Shown here piece after piece: positions 6,036 through 57,381 of a stretch of DNA of 64,000 nucleotides. This DNA is from Acidobacteriaceae bacterium (GTDB lineage: Bacteria; Acidobacteriota; Terriglobia; Terriglobales; Acidobacteriaceae). The DNA is taken from assembly GCA_021323655.1 (NCBI GenBank), contig JAJPKO010000027.1, positions 1 through 64,000 on the forward strand. Reading direction: 5' to 3'. Below the pieces are notes generated by a model. It ran no database searches. It had not been told where the DNA came from and saw nothing but the letters and a program-made list of their open reading frames with translations. The translations under genes and the position numbers were made by a program. How positions within the stretch are numbered: position 1 is the first letter of the stretch; every line of letters begins with the position of its first letter.

Positions 6036-8357
6036 ATGAAATCTCAACCGTCCGCTGCCACTGTTACGCCGGAGCTGCTGGCGCAGCACGGCATTACGCT
6101 TGATGAGTACGCGCGCATCGAAGCCGCTCTGGGACGCACGCCCAGCCTGACCGAGCTTGGCATTTACTCTGTGATGTGGAGCGAGCATTGCTCCTATAAA
6201 TCTTCGCGGGTGCATCTGAAGCGGCTGCCTACCAAAAGCGATCGCGTGGTGCAGGGGCCGGGGGAGAATGCCGGAATTATTGACGTGGGCGACGGATGGG
6301 CCTGCGCCTTCAAGATTGAGTCGCACAATCATCCTTCTTATATTGAGCCTTATCAGGGAGCGGCGACCGGGGTCGGCGGCATTCTGCGCGACATTTTTAC
6401 CATGGGCGCGCGTCCGCTGGCGGTAATGGATTCGCTGCGCTTTGGGCCGATTAGGGATGACGGCAGGACGCCGCACGAGATTGTCCATAAGAACCATTCC
6501 ATTCTGGAAGGCGTGGTCCACGGGATTGCGGGATACGGAAACTGCTTCGGCGTTCCGAACCTGGGGGGCGAGACGCGCTTTGAAGAGTGCTACTCAGGCA
6601 ATCCGCTGGTGAATGCTTTTGCGCTGGGGCTGGTGCGGCGCGATGAGATTTTCTATGCCAAGGCGACGGGCGTTGGCAATCCGGTGATTTACGTCGGGGC
6701 CAAGACGGGACGCGACGGAATCCACGGCGCCACGATGGCGAGCGAGGAGTTCAAGGAAGGCTCGGAGCAGAAGCGGCCCAATGTGCAGGTGGGCGACCCG
6801 TTTATGGAGAAGCTGCTGCTTGAAGCCTGCCTGGAGGCGATGAAGACCGGGGCCATTGTCGGTATTCAGGACATGGGCGCCGCCGGCCTTACCTGCTCGA
6901 CCTGCGAGATGGGCGCGCGCGGCGGGGTGGGACTGGAAGTGGAGCTGGACCATGTGCCGCAGCGCGAGACGGGCATGACGGCCTACGAAATCATGCTGAG
7001 CGAATCGCAGGAGCGCATGCTGCTGGTGGCGGACAAGGGCCGGGAGAAGGAAGTGCTGGATGTTTTTGCCAAGTGGGGGCTGGATGCGACGATTGTCGGC
7101 ACGGTGATTGCCGAGCCGCGGCTGCGCATTCTGCACCATGGCGAGCTGGTTGCGGACATTCCGAACCAGTCACTGACGGATGATGCTCCGGTATATCACC
7201 GCCCGGTAGGCGAGTGGAAGGCGCCTGTTCCGGCAGAGCCGACGAAGAGCGCACTGGCCAGGCTGGGCTTTGAGGACAAGGTTTCGGACCGCGATTACAC
7301 CGAAGATTTGCGTGCGCTGCTTGGTTCAGCCAATATCTGTTCGAAGTGCTGGGTACATGAGCAGTATGACTCGATGGTGCAGACCAACACGGTGCAGGGG
7401 CCGGGCGGCGAAGGCGGCGTGATGCGCATCAAGGGCACCAGGCGCGGACTGGCGATGGCGCTCGATGGCAACGGACGCTGGTGCTATCTTGACCCAAAAC
7501 TTGGCGCGAAGCTGGCGGTGGCGGAGGCGGCGCGCAAGGTGGCTTGTACTGGCGCGACTCCGATTGCTGCGACGAACTGCCTGAATTTTGGGAATCCGGA
7601 AAAGCCGGAGATTATGGCACAGCTTTCCGCCGCGATTGACGGCATTGCGGAGGCCTGCACTGTGCTGGGCACTCCGATTACGGGCGGGAATGTTTCGCTG
7701 TATAACGAGACCCGCGGTGAGGGGATTTATCCCACACCGGTGCTGGGAATTGTAGGCATTCTGGAAGACATTACGAAGACCGTGCCTGCGGACTTCCGGC
7801 AGGAGGGCGATGCTGTTCTGCTGATTGGAGCACGGAAGCTTCCGCCAATAGAACATCGGCTGCGGGAGTTTGGCTCTTCAGAATACGCGAAGACTGTGCT
7901 GGGCGAGGTGTGGGGAGCGCCGCCATCGCTTGATCTTGCAGCGGAAGCGGCACTGCAAAAATGTGTGGCGGAGCTGGCCGAGGCCGGCCTGGTGCATTCG
8001 GCACGGGACATTTCTGACGGCGGGGTTGCAGTTTCGCTTGCGGAAGCGGCATTTGCCAATGGCGTGGGCGTGAGCGCAAATCTGACGGAACCGGCGGATT
8101 TGCCTGCGGCCTGGGCGTTGTTCCATGAGTCGGCCACGCAGGTGATTGTTTCCTGCGCGATGGCTTCGGTGGAGAAGGTCAAAGCGGTTGTGCAGAAATA
8201 TCCGGAATTGCTGGTTGCAAATCTGGGCGAAACTGTAAAAGATAGTCTGCGCATTCAGATCAATGGAAAAACAGTGATCGAGGAACATATTTCCGGATTG
8301 CAGCATGTGTGGGCGAATGCGCTCGAAGCCGCACTTCATGAAGAGGTGCTGGCGTGA
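6036..8357 (+). CDS. purL: Phosphoribosylformylglycinamidine synthase, large subunit
   Basis: A 773-residue PurL of the small, three-component type that needs separate PurQ (glutaminase) and PurS; neither is in this window. It converts FGAR to FGAM in purine synthesis using ATP and ammonia. Typical motifs are [10 protein letters not shown] near the start, [10 protein letters not shown] (ATP/Mg site), [20 protein letters not shown] and [12 protein letters not shown]. Its TGA overlaps the GTG of purF by 4 bp, so the two are translationally coupled. Confidence 0.97.
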
Positions 8358-9895
8358 AACATCTGCTGGTTGAAGGTATTGCGGGAAAAACCTCTTTCTT
8401 ATCTCTCCATGCGGAGGAAAAGCAGGTCCTTCGCTGCGTTCAGGATAACAAGGGAGAAACCTGGGTGCCTGGGGATTCGCCGTATGACAAGCTGCGGGAA
8501 GAATGCGGTGTTGTTGCCATTCACGGACACCCCGATGCAGCGCGGCAGGCGTACCTGGGGCTTTATGCGCTTCAGCACCGTGGGCAGGAGTCTGCTGGAA
8601 TTGCCACGGCGGACGGCACGAATCTCTTCAACATTAAAGGCATGGGACTGGTTGCGGACATCTTTACTGAAGAGGTCCTCTCAAAACTTACCGGCGACAT
8701 GGCCATTGGGCACACGCGCTATTCGACGACCGGAGACTCGGCGCTGCTGAATGCGCAGCCAATCCGTGTGGACTCGACGAAGGGACTGATTGCGATTGCG
8801 CACAACGGAAATCTCGTCAATCTGGGGAATGTGCGGGCGCGGCTCGAACGCGAGGGCGCTTTTTTCCAGACGACGAGCGATTCTGAGATCATCGTGCAGC
8901 TGATCGCGCACTCGAAAGAAAGTACGCTGGTGGAGGCCATCGCGGACTCGCTGCGGCAGGTGGACGGCGCGTTTTCCATTGTGATGATGACGCGCGACCG
9001 CATTTTTGCTGCGCGTGATCCGCGCGGCTTCCGGCCGCTCTCGATGGGGCGCATTGAGAACCCTGATGGGCCGGACACGATTGTGTTCGCCTCAGAGACC
9101 TGCGCCTTTGACCTGTTGCGCGCGAAGTTTGAGCGCGATGTGAAACCGGGCGAGCTGGTAATGGTCACGAAAGATGGCGTGACTTCAGTGCAGTATGCGA
9201 GTGGGGTGCCGCAGTCGAGCTGCATTTTTGAGCATGTGTACTTTGCGCGGCCTGACAGCAAAATCTATAACCGCTGGGTGCAGGAGAGCCGCGAAGAAAT
9301 GGGGCGGCAGCTTGCACGCGAGTCGCATGTGGATGCAGACCTGGTTGTCCCTGTGCCGGACAGCGGAGTGACGGCGGCGATTGGATATGCGGCGGAGAGC
9401 GGCATTCCGTTTCGATTTGGGCTGATTCGCAATCACTATGTGGGGCGCACCTTTATTGAGCCGGAGCAGCGTGTGCGCGACTTCGGCGTAAAGCTGAAGC
9501 TGAATCCGGTGCGCAATCTGCTGGCGGACAAGCGCATTATTCTGATTGATGACTCGATCATTCGTGGCACGACGAGCCGCAAGATTGTGCGCATGGTGCG
9601 TGCGGCAGGCGCAAAAGAAGTGCATATGCGCATCAGTTGTCCGCCAACCACGTCACCATGCTTCTACGGCGTAGACACCCCGCGCAAGAAAGAGCTGATT
9701 GCCGCCAACAAAACAATCGAAGAGATTCGCCAGTTTATCGAGGCCGATTCGCTCGCGTATTTGTCACTGGAAGGGTTACAAAAAGGCTGTGATGGCGGTG
9801 AGGGCAATCGCTTCTGTGTGGCCTGCTATACGGGCGAGTACCCGACGGAGTGGGTGGACGTGGAAGAGATCCTGCCTGCTGCTGCTTCGCGGTAA
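8354..9895 (+). CDS. purF: Amidophosphoribosyltransferase (Fe-S type)
   Basis: The committing step of purine synthesis: PRPP plus glutamine gives phosphoribosylamine. The nucleophilic Cys is residue 51 ([13 protein letters not shown]), so a propeptide of about 50 residues would be removed if GTG 8354 is the start, unusually long compared with the 11 residues of Bacillus PurF. Part of the propeptide is a dispersed repeat (8421-8452). The PRPP loop is [17 protein letters not shown]. Cysteines in [14 protein letters not shown] and CVACYTG match the ligands of the 4Fe-4S Bacillus-type enzyme. It is coupled to purL by a 4-bp overlap. A later start would shorten the propeptide, but I see no better candidate. 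Confidence 0.96.
8421..8452 (+). repeat. Dispersed repeat copy inside the purF propeptide
   Basis: AGCAGGTCCTTCGCTGCG followed by TTCAGGATAACAAG closely matches the complement of 49426-49460 inside the glucoamylase gene, and partly matches 28251-28270 and 44230-44240. Here it is in frame and adds the residues [11 protein letters not shown] ahead of the catalytic cysteine. Confidence 0.65.
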
Positions 9896-9912
9896 AACAC
9901 TACTTCTTGGGC

Positions 9913-9937
9913 CCCAGGTCCGCTACACAAACCTGGG
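9913..9937. terminator. Hairpin between convergent purF and GH35 genes
   Basis: CCCAGGT (9913-9919) and ACCTGGG (9931-9937) form a 7-bp stem with an 11-nt loop, in the 71-bp gap between two converging genes. There is no strong U-tract, so it may be a repeat-derived barrier rather than a classical terminator. Confidence 0.5.
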
Positions 9938-9966
9938 ACACCCGTGTTATCAGCCCAACAAACAAA

Positions 9967-11784
9967 TTATTTAGCGACTGGCGCGTCGAGGATGTGCTTC
10001 TTCAGACCTTGCAGAGTGCGGCCAGATGCTCCTTCAAGGTCGAATACCACCACTTCATTCTCGCCGGATTTGAGCCAGGGACCAGGAACGTAGAGTGTCT
10101 TCTGCGGGCCGATGTTCCAGATGCGGCCGAGGGCGTGCCCGTTGAGCCAGACTTCTCCCTTGGTGAAGGCGCTGGTGTCGAGGAAGGTGTCGGCTGGCTT
10201 CTCTGCTTTGAATGTGGCGCGGTAGAAGCATGCTCCGTTGCAGGTTGTGCTGCGGTAATGGAGCTCCTGCGTGTTCTTCATGGGTAGGGAGTAGATGTCC
10301 CAGCCGGTGACAGGCTTGCCGTCGAGTGTGACCTGCTTTGTGATTCCCTTACGCTCACCGCGGATGACCTTGGTGAAGTTTACGCGGCCCGTGTTTTCGA
10401 CGAGAACGTCGAGGCGCGCTTTCTGCGCAGATATGTTGAGCGGCAGAGAGTTTTGATTGAGGCGGCGGTCGAGCGTGCCGATGAGTTTTCCATCTAGGTA
10501 AATCTGCGCGTAGTCATGGAGCTGGTCGAGGGTGAGATCACCGCTGACCGGACCGTTGAGAGTGGTGCGGTAGAGGATGTAGCCGTAGGCCTGGTTGATG
10601 TCTTCCATGGAAAGCGGCTGTTTGCTGTGGATGGCTTTTGGCAGGTTCTGCCAGAGTGAGGCGGATTGTGTCAGCGGGAACGCCGGGACTTCGATTGTGG
10701 GGGCAACGGGCGGGACCGGCGGCGGAGTTTTTCCGGTGGCCTTTGCAATGGTGTCGCGGAAGAGGAAGTATTTTGCAGTGGGACGGCCACTTTCATCGAG
10801 CGGTGCATCGTAGTCATAGCTGGTGACATCGGGCTCGTAGTTTTTGCCATTGGAGTTAGCGCCGTTCATCCAGCCGAAGCTGGTGCCGCCGTGGAACATA
10901 TACAGGCTGATGGAGTAGCCCTGCCGGAGCGTCCAGTCAATGTCTTTCGCCTCCTGCTGAGCATCGGTGACCTGGTGTTTTGAGCCCCAATGATCAAACC
11001 AGCCGTCCCAGTATTCGCTGTTCATAAAGGGACCTTCGGGGCGCAACTTTTTCAGGGTGGCGAATCCCTTTTGCGATTCTCCCGGGCCGTAGTTCACTGC
11101 GGCGGGCAGCTCGGGCAGAGAGCCGTTCGGGACCTGCTCGGGGCCATCGGCCGTGTAGAGCTGGGCCTTGGTGAAGCCGGCATCCACGAGCATGTGGTGG
11201 ATGTCCTCCATATATTCGTGGTCCTTGTCGAAAGAGCCGTATTCGTTTTCCACCTGGACGAGGATGATGGGACCGCCGTTCCCAATCTGAAGGGAGGCCA
11301 GTTCTTGTCCGAGACGTGTGAGCCAGCGCTTCGACGCGGCGAGGAACTTCGGATCGCGGGAGCGCACAACCATGCTGTGGTCTTTGAGAAGCCATGCGGG
11401 GTAGCCACCGAAATCCCACTCAGCGCAGGCATAGGGGCCGGGGCGGAGGATGACGTAGAGCCCTTCCTGCTGGGCCTCGCGCACGAATTCGGCGACATCG
11501 TTGTTTCCGGAGAAGTCGTAGACGCCCGGCTGGGGCTCATGCACATTCCAGAAGACGTAGGTGGTGATGGTGTTGAGGCCCATGGCCTTTGCCATGCGGA
11601 AGCGGTCACGCCAGTAAGCGCGGGGGATGCGGGCGTAGTGCATTTCACCGGAGATGACCTGGAAGGGTTTGCCATCGAGCGTGAACTGGCCGTGCTCGGC
11701 CTTGAAGGTATGCGGCGTAGATGCAAACGATTTCACAGGCAGGAAGCTTGCGGCCAAAAGTAGCAGCGCGAGGTTGCGTTTCAT
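9967..11784 (-). CDS. Secreted GH35 beta-galactosidase
   Basis: About 605 residues from ATG 11784, chosen because it starts a clear Sec signal peptide (MKRNLALLLLAASFLPVKSFA) with AGGAG upstream; the open frame extends further but without such features. The GH35 TIM barrel shows the acid/base Glu in QVENEYGSF (near residue 181) and the nucleophile Glu in MNSEYWDGW (near residue 257). C-terminal jelly-roll domains include DIYSLPM and WNIGPQKTLYVPG. It likely removes terminal beta-galactose from plant or microbial glycans in the periplasm or outside the cell. Confidence 0.93.
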   Translation of the reverse strand: MKRNLALLLLAASFLPVKSFASTPHTFKAEHGQFTLDGKPFQVISGEMHYARIPRAYWRDRFRMAKAMGLNTITTYVFWNVHEPQPGVYDFSGNNDVAEFVREAQQEGLYVILRPGPYACAEWDFGGYPAWLLKDHSMVVRSRDPKFLAASKRWLTRLGQELASLQIGNGGPIILVQVENEYGSFDKDHEYMEDIHHMLVDAGFTKAQLYTADGPEQVPNGSLPELPAAVNYGPGESQKGFATLKKLRPEGPFMNSEYWDGWFDHWGSKHQVTDAQQEAKDIDWTLRQGYSISLYMFHGGTSFGWMNGANSNGKNYEPDVTSYDYDAPLDESGRPTAKYFLFRDTIAKATGKTPPPVPPVAPTIEVPAFPLTQSASLWQNLPKAIHSKQPLSMEDINQAYGYILYRTTLNGPVSGDLTLDQLHDYAQIYLDGKLIGTLDRRLNQNSLPLNISAQKARLDVLVENTGRVNFTKVIRGERKGITKQVTLDGKPVTGWDIYSLPMKNTQELHYRSTTCNGACFYRATFKAEKPADTFLDTSAFTKGEVWLNGHALGRIWNIGPQKTLYVPGPWLKSGENEVVVFDLEGASGRTLQGLKKHILDAPVAK

Positions 11785-53454: not shown

Positions 53455-55080
53455 TCAAACGCCCACTGGATAGGGCTTCGGAGATGACTCCTCAAAATTC
53501 GCACCGGAGCGCCAGCGTTCAAAACGGCCCTGCAATAGTGACAGCAGCCCTGTATACCAGTAGCCCATCACAAAGATAAACAGGAAGGGCACGGTGAAGT
53601 AATTCTCATTGCTGATGGCATACCAGATCGTCAGCGCAAAGTAGCAGCCAATCAGCAGCTCAATCCAGGGAACAATCCCCAGACGCTTGCGGTACTTGGC
53701 AGCTTTTGATTTCTCGCCGCGCTTCTGAACGCGATACTTAGGAGTGCGCTTGAAGGAACTCTGGATCCCGAAGAGGGCTTCCATCACGGCCTTCGTATTG
53801 GTCACCGTCAGCCCGATTCCCAGCGCCATCAGGAACGGCAGGTACAGAAATGTCTTATACCAGCTGCGCGGAAAGAGTTCCTTTTGCGAGACCAGATAAA
53901 AGGACGAAATAGAAAACGTAGATGCCATAAAGAGTGGTACGTCAATCAGCAGCATCTGGAACCACCCCTGATAGAAGCGGATGATCATGGCCGGCATGAG
54001 CAATGTTGAAAGCACCACCATGAGCGGGTAGCTGATGTTTGCCGTGAGGTGATACCAGGCCTCAATTTTGGTATGAAAGGGGACATCGCTTTTAAAAACT
54101 CGAGGCAGAATTTTTTTCGATGTCTGGATGAGGCCCTTGGCCCAGCGCGCCTGCTGGGTTTTGAAGGCCGTCATCTCAATCGGCACTTCCGCCGGGCACT
54201 CCACATGCTGCAGATACTTGAAACGCCAACCTTTTAATTGCGCCCGGTAGCTCAGGTCGGTGTCTTCTGTAAGAGTGTCATGTTGCCAGCCGCCGGCCTC
54301 TTCAATCGCCTTGCGCCGCCACATGCCGGCAGTTCCGTTGAAATTAAAGAAGACATCCGCACGCGAGCGGCCACCGTGCTCCAGCACAAAATGCCCATCG
54401 AGCAGAATGGCCTCCACCTGGGTAAGGAAGCTATAGTCGCGGTTCAGGTGTGTCCAGCGGGTCTGCACCATGCCCACATCTGGCTGGGCAAAGTGATGGA
54501 TGACCTGCATAAGCCAGTCGCGCGGAGGCACAAAGTCCGCATCAAAAATGGCAACGAATTCACCTTTCGCTGTTTTCAGGCCATGGTCGAGTGCCCCGGC
54601 CTTAAAACCATGCCGGTCCTCGCGGTGGATATAAACAATAGGGTTCCCAGCCTGCCTGTACTGCTCAACCAGATTGCGCGCCACCTCTTTAGTTTCGTCG
54701 GTCGAGTCATCGAGTACCTGGATTTCCAGCAGATCGCGCGGGTAATCGAGGTTGCAGCAGGCCTCAATGAGACGGTCAATCACGAACTGCTCATTAAAGA
54801 TAGGCAGCTGGATCGTCACGCGTGGCAGTTGCTGAAACTGCTGCGGCGGCTCAGTGGCAGCGTTTTTACGGTGTTTGTAGTACAGATACACAAGCTGATA
54901 GCGGTGCATTCCATAGGATGCAAGCACGATCATGACCGCAAAATAAGGAATGAGCAGCGATGTATCGAACCAGTTCCAGCGGTACAGATGCTCAAAGGTG
55001 CGATCACCATAATGAGAACGCAGATAATGGGAAAGGCTATGCTGGCTGAGTTGCGCCAACAGCGAGATACAACCATGCAT
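53455..55080 (-). CDS. Processive GT2 glycosyltransferase (cellulose/mannan synthase-like)
   Basis: 541 residues. One N-terminal helix (SLLIPYFAVMIVLASYGMH) is followed by a GT2 domain with LDDSTDET, FDADFVP (DxD), LTEDTDLSYR (TED) and QQARWAKG (QxxRW), then about five helices. The active-site set is that of processive beta-glycan synthases. The closest style is plant CSLA-type mannan/glucomannan synthase-like proteins of bacteria; no PilZ domain is present, so direct c-di-GMP control is not expected. It is separate from the bcs operon by 27 kb and has no partner gene beside it. Confidence 0.88.
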   Translation of the reverse strand: MHGCISLLAQLSQHSLSHYLRSHYGDRTFEHLYRWNWFDTSLLIPYFAVMIVLASYGMHRYQLVYLYYKHRKNAATEPPQQFQQLPRVTIQLPIFNEQFVIDRLIEACCNLDYPRDLLEIQVLDDSTDETKEVARNLVEQYRQAGNPIVYIHREDRHGFKAGALDHGLKTAKGEFVAIFDADFVPPRDWLMQVIHHFAQPDVGMVQTRWTHLNRDYSFLTQVEAILLDGHFVLEHGGRSRADVFFNFNGTAGMWRRKAIEEAGGWQHDTLTEDTDLSYRAQLKGWRFKYLQHVECPAEVPIEMTAFKTQQARWAKGLIQTSKKILPRVFKSDVPFHTKIEAWYHLTANISYPLMVVLSTLLMPAMIIRFYQGWFQMLLIDVPLFMASTFSISSFYLVSQKELFPRSWYKTFLYLPFLMALGIGLTVTNTKAVMEALFGIQSSFKRTPKYRVQKRGEKSKAAKYRKRLGIVPWIELLIGCYFALTIWYAISNENYFTVPFLFIFVMGYWYTGLLSLLQGRFERWRSGANFEESSPKPYPVGV

Positions 55081-55234: not shown

Positions 55235-56053
55235 TCAGAACAGCGCCATCATCCGGTAAAGTGCGTCCCGCTGCGCCGGACGGAAGCCTGCTTCCCGAAT
55301 CACCCTGCGGAGGTCCTCTTCTGTCGTCCCGGGAGGTACCGGCCCAGCATCGTTCGCGCCAAATCGCAGGGCCATCTGCAATACTTTCAGTCCCTGTGCC
55401 GTCGCACTTGCCTGAATGTGCTCGACCTCCGGCACATAGAGGCGGGATATGGCCACCATCTTCAGATATTCCACTCCGGTTGGAGCGTCGAGGTCTCGTG
55501 CAGGCGCGTAGCTGATGGGAGCAAGAGCAAGAAATCCGCCCGTTTCTGCCTGCAAACGACGGATTTTGTCGAGAATGTCGAGACGCAGGCTGAAGTCATC
55601 GCCCTTTCCGAAGATAAAAGCAGCGATGGTCTTCATTCCCGCGCGGTGCGCCGAGCGATGCACGCTCAACCACTCCTCCACATCTGGTCCGCTGGCCAGC
55701 CCATCCTCTGCCACCGAATCCAGCCCCGCAGCGTGAAGGCGGCGAAAAATTTCATCCAGACCCAGACCACTCGACCCGGCCAGGGAAACCACGGCCCACG
55801 CGGACACAAGGAGTTGTGAATGGGGGAACTTTTTGCGGAACTCCCGAAGCGATTCTTCCAGACCTTCGAGTGTCTCGGATGTTTCAGTTTTGATCCGAAT
55901 CGCGCCGTCTTTGAGTTCGGACGAAGCTGTCTCGCTGAGCGAATAGGTCACCACTTCTTCAGGATGGGCCGTTCTGCGGGCGGCATCGGCCTCCATCCCC
56001 AGACCAATGAGGTCGCTCGAAAGAAAAGATTCAAAGGCTTGTTCGCGGGTCAT
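55235..56053 (-). CDS. MqnC/CofH-like protein lacking the radical-SAM cysteine motif
   Basis: About 272 residues from ATG 56053. It aligns by eye along dehypoxanthine futalosine cyclase (MqnC): N-terminal MTREQAFESFLSSDLIGLG and HPEEVVTY, later LRRLHAAGLDS-like and EEWLSVHRSAHRAGMKT, then LQAETGGFLAL, PTGVEYLKMVAISRL, HIQASATAQGLKVLQMALRF, GANDAG and REAGFRPAQRDALY. Where MqnC has CxxxCxxC after VVTY there is SLSETASSELKDGAIRIKTE, with no cysteine at all in the protein. So the cluster cannot form and the radical chemistry is lost. It could be a partner or regulator in futalosine-route menaquinone synthesis, or a repurposed fold. Confidence 0.75.
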   Translation of the reverse strand: MTREQAFESFLSSDLIGLGMEADAARRTAHPEEVVTYSLSETASSELKDGAIRIKTETSETLEGLEESLREFRKKFPHSQLLVSAWAVVSLAGSSGLGLDEIFRRLHAAGLDSVAEDGLASGPDVEEWLSVHRSAHRAGMKTIAAFIFGKGDDFSLRLDILDKIRRLQAETGGFLALAPISYAPARDLDAPTGVEYLKMVAISRLYVPEVEHIQASATAQGLKVLQMALRFGANDAGPVPPGTTEEDLRRVIREAGFRPAQRDALYRMMALF

Positions 56054-56175: not shown

Positions 56176-57381
56176 ATGGAATTCTATGTGGTGATTGGTG
56201 GCGGACTGACTGGGCTGACTGCGGCAAATGCTTTGGCGGATGCCGGCCATCGAGTCAGGCTCGTCGAGCAGGCGCACGCTGTGGGCGGACGCGCGCAGAC
56301 CCAGCAACACGGTGAATACCGGATGAACCTCGGGCCGCATGCCCTCTATTGCGGAGGCATCGCCATGAAGACCTTCCGTAACTGGAAGCTTCCGTTTTCC
56401 GGAAATTTCCCGCCCGCGGAAGGACGCAGCTACTTTGTACGCGAGAACAAGCTGTATCCAGCCGTGCGTGATGTAAAAAGCCTCCTCACAACGCGCCTGT
56501 TTTCTCTGGGCGAAAAGCTGGAGGCCGCGCGCGTCTTCAGCGCGTTCTCCCGCGCAAGCGCGGAAGACGGAGAAACCATGCAGCAGTGGATAGATCGTCA
56601 TGCGCAGTCAGAGCACGTCCGCGAGTTTGCTGCTACGATTACGCGCATCGCCACATATACAACGGACATGGATCGCCTGAGCGCAAAAGCCGCAGTGGAG
56701 CAGATCGCGATGGCGGTCCGCCATAATGTGCACTATCTGGATGGAGGATGGCAGACGCTGGTGGATGGCCTGCGCGAACGCGCAACGCGGCTGGGCGTGG
56801 AGATACGTTGCGGCGAACATCTGACGTCACTCGATCATCTGGATGCAGATGGCATCGTGCTGGCCGTGGGTCCGGCAAGCGTGCAGAAGCTTACCGGAAA
56901 ACAGGTCCCGAACCAGCAACCCTTACGCATGGCAACGCTTGACATTGGAATAAGAAAGCTGCCGAAAGGCGCTGCGCATGTGGCATTCGGATTGGACCGG
57001 CCCCTGTATTTCTCCGTGCATTCCCGTTCCGCACGCCTTGCGCCCGAAGGGGCAGCGCTCGCGCACGTTGCCAAATACATGGACAACATCCAGGCTGATC
57101 CAAAAGCATTGCGCGAAGAACTGGAGGAGTATGCTTCACTGGTGATGCCGGGCTGGCAGCGCGAAGCAGAGGCCGTCCGCTTCCTTCCAAACCTTACCGT
57201 TACGCCGATGATGGTCACTCCGGAAGGCCGCCCGGATGTGGATTTCCTCGGTCTCGACAACCTGACCGTTGCCGGAGACTGGGTGGGCGCAGAAGGCATG
57301 CTGGCAGACACAGCCGTTGCCAGTGCTCTGAAAGCGGCGAGTCTGATACAGAAGCAAAAATCAAACGTATTGGTTGCGTGA
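56176..57381 (+). CDS. FAD-dependent oxidoreductase (amine oxidase/phytoene desaturase-like)
   Basis: About 401 residues from ATG 56176, with GGAGGA 8 nt upstream. The FAD-binding motif VVIGGGLTGLTAANALADAG is at the N terminus, with the second GG motif VGGRAQTQQHGEYRMNLGPH. The C-terminal FAD site is GDWVGAEGMLADTAVASALKAA. Substrate unknown. The following ECF41 sigma factor gene overlaps its stop (GTGA). ECF41 factors are typically encoded beside the redox enzymes they control. Confidence 0.85.
   Translation: MEFYVVIGGGLTGLTAANALADAGHRVRLVEQAHAVGGRAQTQQHGEYRMNLGPHALYCGGIAMKTFRNWKLPFSGNFPPAEGRSYFVRENKLYPAVRDVKSLLTTRLFSLGEKLEAARVFSAFSRASAEDGETMQQWIDRHAQSEHVREFAATITRIATYTTDMDRLSAKAAVEQIAMAVRHNVHYLDGGWQTLVDGLRERATRLGVEIRCGEHLTSLDHLDADGIVLAVGPASVQKLTGKQVPNQQPLRMATLDIGIRKLPKGAAHVAFGLDRPLYFSVHSRSARLAPEGAALAHVAKYMDNIQADPKALREELEEYASLVMPGWQREAEAVRFLPNLTVTPMMVTPEGRPDVDFLGLDNLTVAGDWVGAEGMLADTAVASALKAASLIQKQKSNVLVA

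Follow-up and report, generated by a model that had tools for sequence, protein, structure and literature searches.

Within the window, by which we mean the whole stretch of 64,000 nucleotides analysed here, an open reading frame runs on the minus strand from an ATG at 56053 to a stop codon ending at 55235 (55235-56053), with the ribosome-site-like sequence AAAGAAG immediately 5' of the ATG. On the plus strand, the frame over this interval is interrupted by a stop. The encoded protein, P0001, is 272 amino acids long and contains zero cysteines, hence no CxxxCxxC motif for [4Fe-4S]/SAM. Its top profile was MqnC (TIGR03699; 2.3e-39; 135.2 bits, below the cut-off of 428.1), followed by MqnE (TIGR03700; 109 bits, below the cut-off of 434.55). 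Among Pfam domains, CofH_C (PF19288) was matched at 49 bits, above the cut-off of 27, and Radical_SAM (PF04055) at 11.7 bits, under the gathering cut-off of 29.5. An earlier note on this DNA, made from the letters alone, had described an MqnC homologue free of cysteine, and on both counts we agree (MqnC best profile, 135 bits). The profile scores also exclude a misread MqnA or MqnD, a guess suggested by the length of the protein; those genes lie elsewhere. On the basis of frame, Pfam and profile scores we call the gene A-prime, a cluster-less mqnC, and use the same label for any MqnC-type protein without CxxxCxxC.

Compared with the canonical MqnC of the family, P0001 retains an N-terminal segment (residues 1-39; 55937-56053, minus strand) with 15 of 18 invariant residues, and a CofH/MqnC C-terminal region (residues 192-268; 55250-55480, minus strand), assigned from Pfam and from the comparison of invariant residues. 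At the C-terminal end (canonical 319-348), 18 of 21 invariant residues are kept. Between these lies a junction (residues 38-50; 55904-55942, minus strand) that lacks the CxxxCxxC segment of MqnC; none of the 23 residues invariant at canonical positions 42-75 survives, and the 301-318 loop is also shortened. Full-length MqnC of sister genera (~350 residues) aligned to residues 1-40 of P0001, mostly at 55-69% identity, and to residues ~62-271, mostly at 46-52%, with the cluster segment falling between. The end-to-end match to MqnC described in the note stands as regards order and fold, except at two gaps, the cluster segment and the 301-318 loop; the cluster segment, said to be replaced, is instead deleted. 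Because no [4Fe-4S] motif is left, radical-SAM chemistry of the known kind is impossible, as the note had argued, and cyclase activity of P0001 would be ruled out, judging by the missing motif.

An AlphaFold model of P0001 reached a mean pLDDT of 82.5 and a pTM of 0.82, with pLDDT below 50 at residues 41-58, the deletion junction; its input alignment included seven canonical relatives, so that the model leans to the MqnC fold. The best solved match was MqnE 6xi9 (Foldseek TM 0.83 by query length), which VIA-align superposed on the model with a Z of 28.8 and an rmsd of 2.6 over 271 residues.

We also examined the place of the gene. Downstream of A-prime lies a glycosyltransferase family 2 gene (53455-55080, minus strand; annotation and comparison of loci), which accompanies mqnC or A-prime across genera. 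A divergent FAD oxidoreductase, HpnE-like but below cut-off, merely forms the other flank (56176-57381, plus strand; profile/domain match). A same-strand glycosyltransferase was found downstream of A-prime in 12/12 loci compared, at distances of -2 to 842 nt (486 and 842 nt in G121 and G164, with just short frames between). It was also downstream in four of the nine canonical mqnC loci compared (G034, G153, G256 and G230) and was not shown at the other five (G009, G014, G032, G088 and G140). An upstream outer-membrane-type protein was common to the A-prime loci of G001, G064, G090 and G164 and the canonical locus of G140. Since neighbours are shared with canonical mqnC loci, A-prime descends from mqnC in place: P0001 is mqnC in its own position with the cluster loop deleted, and not a side paralogue.

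Using the MqnC profile, we found four matches in the window's genome (G000): MqnE on contig C61 (TIGR03700, 502.7 bits, above the cut-off of 434.6), an unlinked divergent radical-SAM protein on contig C13, here called C, P0001 itself and a weak 19-bit match. The note had proposed locating genuine mqnA/C/D/E. MqnE and MqnA/MqnD-like proteins were found, and for MqnC there was no canonical copy, only P0001 and the divergent C. This removes the suggestion that P0001 is a partner of the true MqnC, there being no separate canonical MqnC in the genome; since P0001 is itself the positional mqnC, the partner idea shifts to MqnE or C.

Spread of A-prime and its association with protein C

The survey covered 250 genomes from the family, a sample of a larger group. 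P0001 was matched at E <= 0.001 in 246 of them, MqnE and C being included in these matches, and frames were read in a subset, comprising 17 with a motif-less and 68 with a canonical copy. A-prime was found in G000, G001, G064, G090, G091, G121, G139, G164, G173, G191, G205, G219, G232, G237, G244, G249 and G273, the copies of G173 and G244 being identical; the motif CTEYC[TS]FC was present in the 68 other genomes with a read copy. The same shortened, motif-less form, 60% identical to P0001, was found in G001, the sole other genome of the genus compared, and its recurrence there and in 15 further genomes of the family makes it more than chance. Total absence of cysteine is particular to P0001, the other 16 A-prime proteins having 1-5 cysteines, none in a CxxxCxxC motif. 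An assembly or annotation artefact is excluded: in G001 and G273, each assembled as a single contig, the A-prime frame is open. In G008, which has the usual MqnC-type copy on contig C22, we observed a second, more divergent full-length MqnC-type match (C25:11342-12055; 347-aa frame; 41% to P0001).

Protein C was present in all 17 A-prime genomes as against 1 of the 68 canonical ones (G230). Across the whole sample it occurred in 19/250 genomes (the 17 A-prime genomes, G230 and G122), at 76-87% identity to the C of the window's genome. G122 is 85% complete, and no MqnC-type copy was found in it. G230 combines canonical MqnC with C and an MqnE-type protein (loci L130, L146 and L139), and may represent an intermediate state. 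C and A-prime were never neighbours in the loci compared. No neighbour of C was common to all 20 loci compared, with some neighbour sharing among G000, G001 and G091 and between G121 and G273.

Next, we considered how often the motif-less state arose. On a quick-type rpoBC tree built from 15 A-prime and 25 canonical genomes (40 in all), the A-prime state required 8 changes, and starred branches carried at least 7 of these. Of 7 independent contrasts on this tree, C went with A-prime in 6.9 on average and against it in 0, and in 0.1 there was no difference; a sign test gave a median p of 0.016. The best MqnC gene tree needed 2 changes, with long branches meeting and several A-prime copies long-branched; when eight long rows were removed, a single A-prime clade was compatible with the data (AU p = 0.487). 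The lengths of the lost loop differ among A-prime copies in the alignment, which fits several indel events, and would not amount to proof of several origins. The tree of C is compatible both with and without transfer. Repeated loss in place and a single origin followed by locus exchange through recombination both stand.

The menaquinone route and its candidate cyclase

The note had named a genome lacking the futalosine route, or a resemblance to MqnC that vanished in profile searches, as grounds for giving up its reading; we found the route kept in the genome and the resemblance persisting. Two proteins with the PF02621 (MqnA/MqnD) domain, one MqnD-like and one MqnA-like, were present in 16/16 A-prime genomes searched. 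An NCBIfam search of three such proteins returned no matches and so did not separate MqnA from MqnD; these names rest on PF02621, on sequence reading and on a compact cluster in G217. MenB was found above cut-off in 0/35 genomes searched, with weaker crotonase-type matches in 31 of these 35. An MqnE-type protein was seen directly in 5 of the 17 A-prime genomes (G000, G001, G064, G090 and G091) and inferred from match counts in 11 more, while a search in G139 did not find it, possibly owing to a contig edge or a MAG gap. In genomes inspected for MqnE, both A-prime and canonical MqnC accompany it.

The C of the window's genome (G000:C13:11806-12867) carries the cluster motif CVAQCDYC and Radical_SAM and CofH_C domains. 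It scored 312 bits against TIGR03699 MqnC, below the cut-off of 428.1, and has 80 of 148 MqnC-invariant residues, where MqnE has 84. Its reaction is a guess, given a score under the cut-off and no more invariant residues than in MqnE. As the route genes are kept and the MqnC motif is gone, the cyclisation would be left without an enzyme unless C performs it.

In a sister family, f2 (G037-G050; L069-L071 and L273-L281), C was present in 12 of 14 genomes, and two had no member of the protein family at all; MqnE, canonical MqnC and A-prime were each found in 0/14. The C proteins of f2 were 67-78% identical to that of the window's genome (8 compared), and two PF02621 proteins were observed in 6/6 f2 genomes searched. 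Two further genomes differed from the usual pattern. In G217, genes resembling those for MqnE, MqnA, MqnC and MqnD are packed into one compact cluster (L309, G217:C1:4812000-4829000, 6534-10395). They are unlike those in the other genomes of the family, and the cluster looks laterally acquired; the genome additionally encodes a PF02621 protein of the type common in the family. G189 (L310), 99% complete, had no MqnC-, MqnE- or C-type match, yet has one MqnD-like PF02621 protein.

Selection and conserved residues

All 17 A-prime frames were open. By a simple counting method, dN/dS was 0.08-0.23 in nine A-prime pairs and somewhat lower in eight canonical MqnC pairs (0.02-0.09), with saturation of dS in some pairs; the close A-prime pair G173/G232 (dS 0.36) gave 0.09. 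Constraint on A-prime is thus partly relaxed relative to canonical MqnC. Residues invariant in canonical MqnC were kept in A-prime at fractions of 0.92 at positions 1-20, 0.90 at 21-41, 0.09 at 42-75 and 0.82 at 319-348. Gone or largely replaced were the cysteines, two residues of the GGGAE stretch (G163 and E166), L96-M97, T245, L247, W252 and the 304-314 loop, and a comparison of the pocket found the residues common to canonical MqnC lost in A-prime. Among the A-prime copies themselves, the ends were most conserved and the barrel and pocket positions least.

A-prime combines an open frame, purifying selection and lost catalytic residues, as is expected of a pseudoenzyme. The pattern fits a pseudoenzyme that has kept putative surfaces at its ends, and goes beyond simple decay. 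The retained non-catalytic role that the note had proposed is supported by the open frame, the purifying selection and the preserved terminal motifs.

We also compared the A-prime of G139 with that of its sister G249. The G139 copy had 30 private amino-acid changes vs 11 in G249, with 18 vs 21 synonymous changes (Fisher p = 0.022), a single case chosen after the data were seen. For C, the corresponding changes numbered 21 vs 14 (p = 0.32).

Possible roles of a cluster-less MqnC

We lean, by a modest degree, towards an account in which mqnC lost its catalytic centre, C took over cyclisation and MqnC survives as a pseudoenzyme. The cluster segment has been deleted in place, and the divergent radical-SAM protein C would have taken over the cyclisation of dehypoxanthinyl futalosine in this lineage. 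The old MqnC would remain as a pseudoenzyme whose kept ends may form a binding surface. Its client would most likely be MqnE, and then C, and the structural role of MqnC would predate the loss of catalysis. Partnership with MqnE is favoured over partnership with C on account of the co-occurrence with MqnE, the f2 family that is without all three of MqnE, MqnC and A-prime, and the excess of A-prime changes in G139, the genome in which MqnE was searched for without success, though the case is thin. Counting against the account as a whole are the sub-threshold MqnC score of C, the intact MqnC that accompanies C in G230, the f2 genomes that have C and no A-prime, the small number of A-prime genomes with MqnE seen directly, and the partly relaxed constraint on A-prime. 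The fuller statement, that MqnC has a non-catalytic job, likely as a partner of MqnE, that the loop was shed wherever C replaced catalysis, possibly repeatedly, and that C is the cyclase, we offer tentatively and consider rather doubtful as a whole.

A-prime could instead be an obligate non-catalytic subunit of C, with C giving the cluster and A-prime the terminal elements. The co-occurrence of the two in 17/17 genomes speaks for this, as does the C-terminal tail of C, which differs from that of MqnC, whereas A-prime keeps the MqnC tail. However, C was detected without any A-prime or MqnC in 12/14 f2 genomes and so dispenses with A-prime there, an argument weakened in that C of this sister family may work differently. 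C also occurs alongside an intact MqnC in G230 and without any MqnC-type copy found in the 85% complete G122, and taken together we regard an obligate subunit as unlikely.

Still less likely is a pseudogene on its way out, in which mqnC became redundant after the arrival of C and is slowly losing sequence, with stops not yet gained. Loss of the catalytic segments, the long branches of several A-prime copies and a dN/dS above that of canonical MqnC would fit such a course, but every one of the 17 frames is open, dN/dS is far from 1, and change is concentrated in the catalytic segments while both ends stay. We give slightly less credence again to a new function of A-prime, either as the sensor of a futalosine-derived ligand that the note had suggested or as a cluster-free barrel enzyme. 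The predicted barrel fold and purifying selection are consistent with this, but it is the ends and not the barrel and pocket that are most conserved among A-prime copies, the alignment shows no new shared motif, and loss of the canonical pocket residues weakens the sensor idea. Retention for DNA- or RNA-level reasons, as a promoter or through translational coupling for the glycosyltransferase found downstream on the same strand in every A-prime locus compared, is highly improbable, since selection acts on amino acids and the distance to that gene varies.

Among known systems, A-prime most resembles MqnC, the cyclic dehypoxanthinyl futalosine synthase, which gives its best profile and shares its genomic position, its N-terminal and C-terminal segments and its predicted fold. 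It differs from MqnC in the absent CxxxCxxC, the deleted cluster loop, the shortened 301-318 loop and a score of 135 vs 428 bits. MqnE, the aminofutalosine synthase (PDB 6xi9/6xig), offers the closest solved fold (Z 28.8), although its profile score is lower (109 bits vs 434.6) and the genome has its own MqnE. QTRT2 is the non-catalytic paralogous partner of tRNA-guanine transglycosylase. A-prime is like it in having an enzyme fold without catalysis, possibly as a subunit, and unlike it in that the loss took a whole metal-cluster loop and not single residues, with no catalytic orthologue left in the genome. HemW, a relative of HemN that serves as a radical-SAM heme chaperone (PMC10964404), is likewise a radical-SAM relative with a role other than the parent reaction; A-prime differs in being without the cluster motif. 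A table in PMC3914697 counts MqnA, MqnC and MqnD in 5/5 acidobacterial proteomes, and the accessible portion of that paper makes no mention of a cluster-less MqnC. Nor did we find a report of one in an open-access library, which subscription journals mostly fall outside, and a pseudoenzyme in the radical-SAM MqnC family appears new on that basis.

Nature seems to have performed a separation-of-function experiment on MqnC, in which catalysis is gone and the remainder is kept. If the favoured reading is true, the kept surfaces would point to an unlooked-for interaction in menaquinone biosynthesis, and C would be a candidate for a second kind of cyclase. For annotation, the warning is that an MqnC match without CxxxCxxC should be taken neither for a broken gene nor for an active enzyme. 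That a crippled MqnC is conserved across several related lineages suggests that the protein has a second, non-catalytic job.
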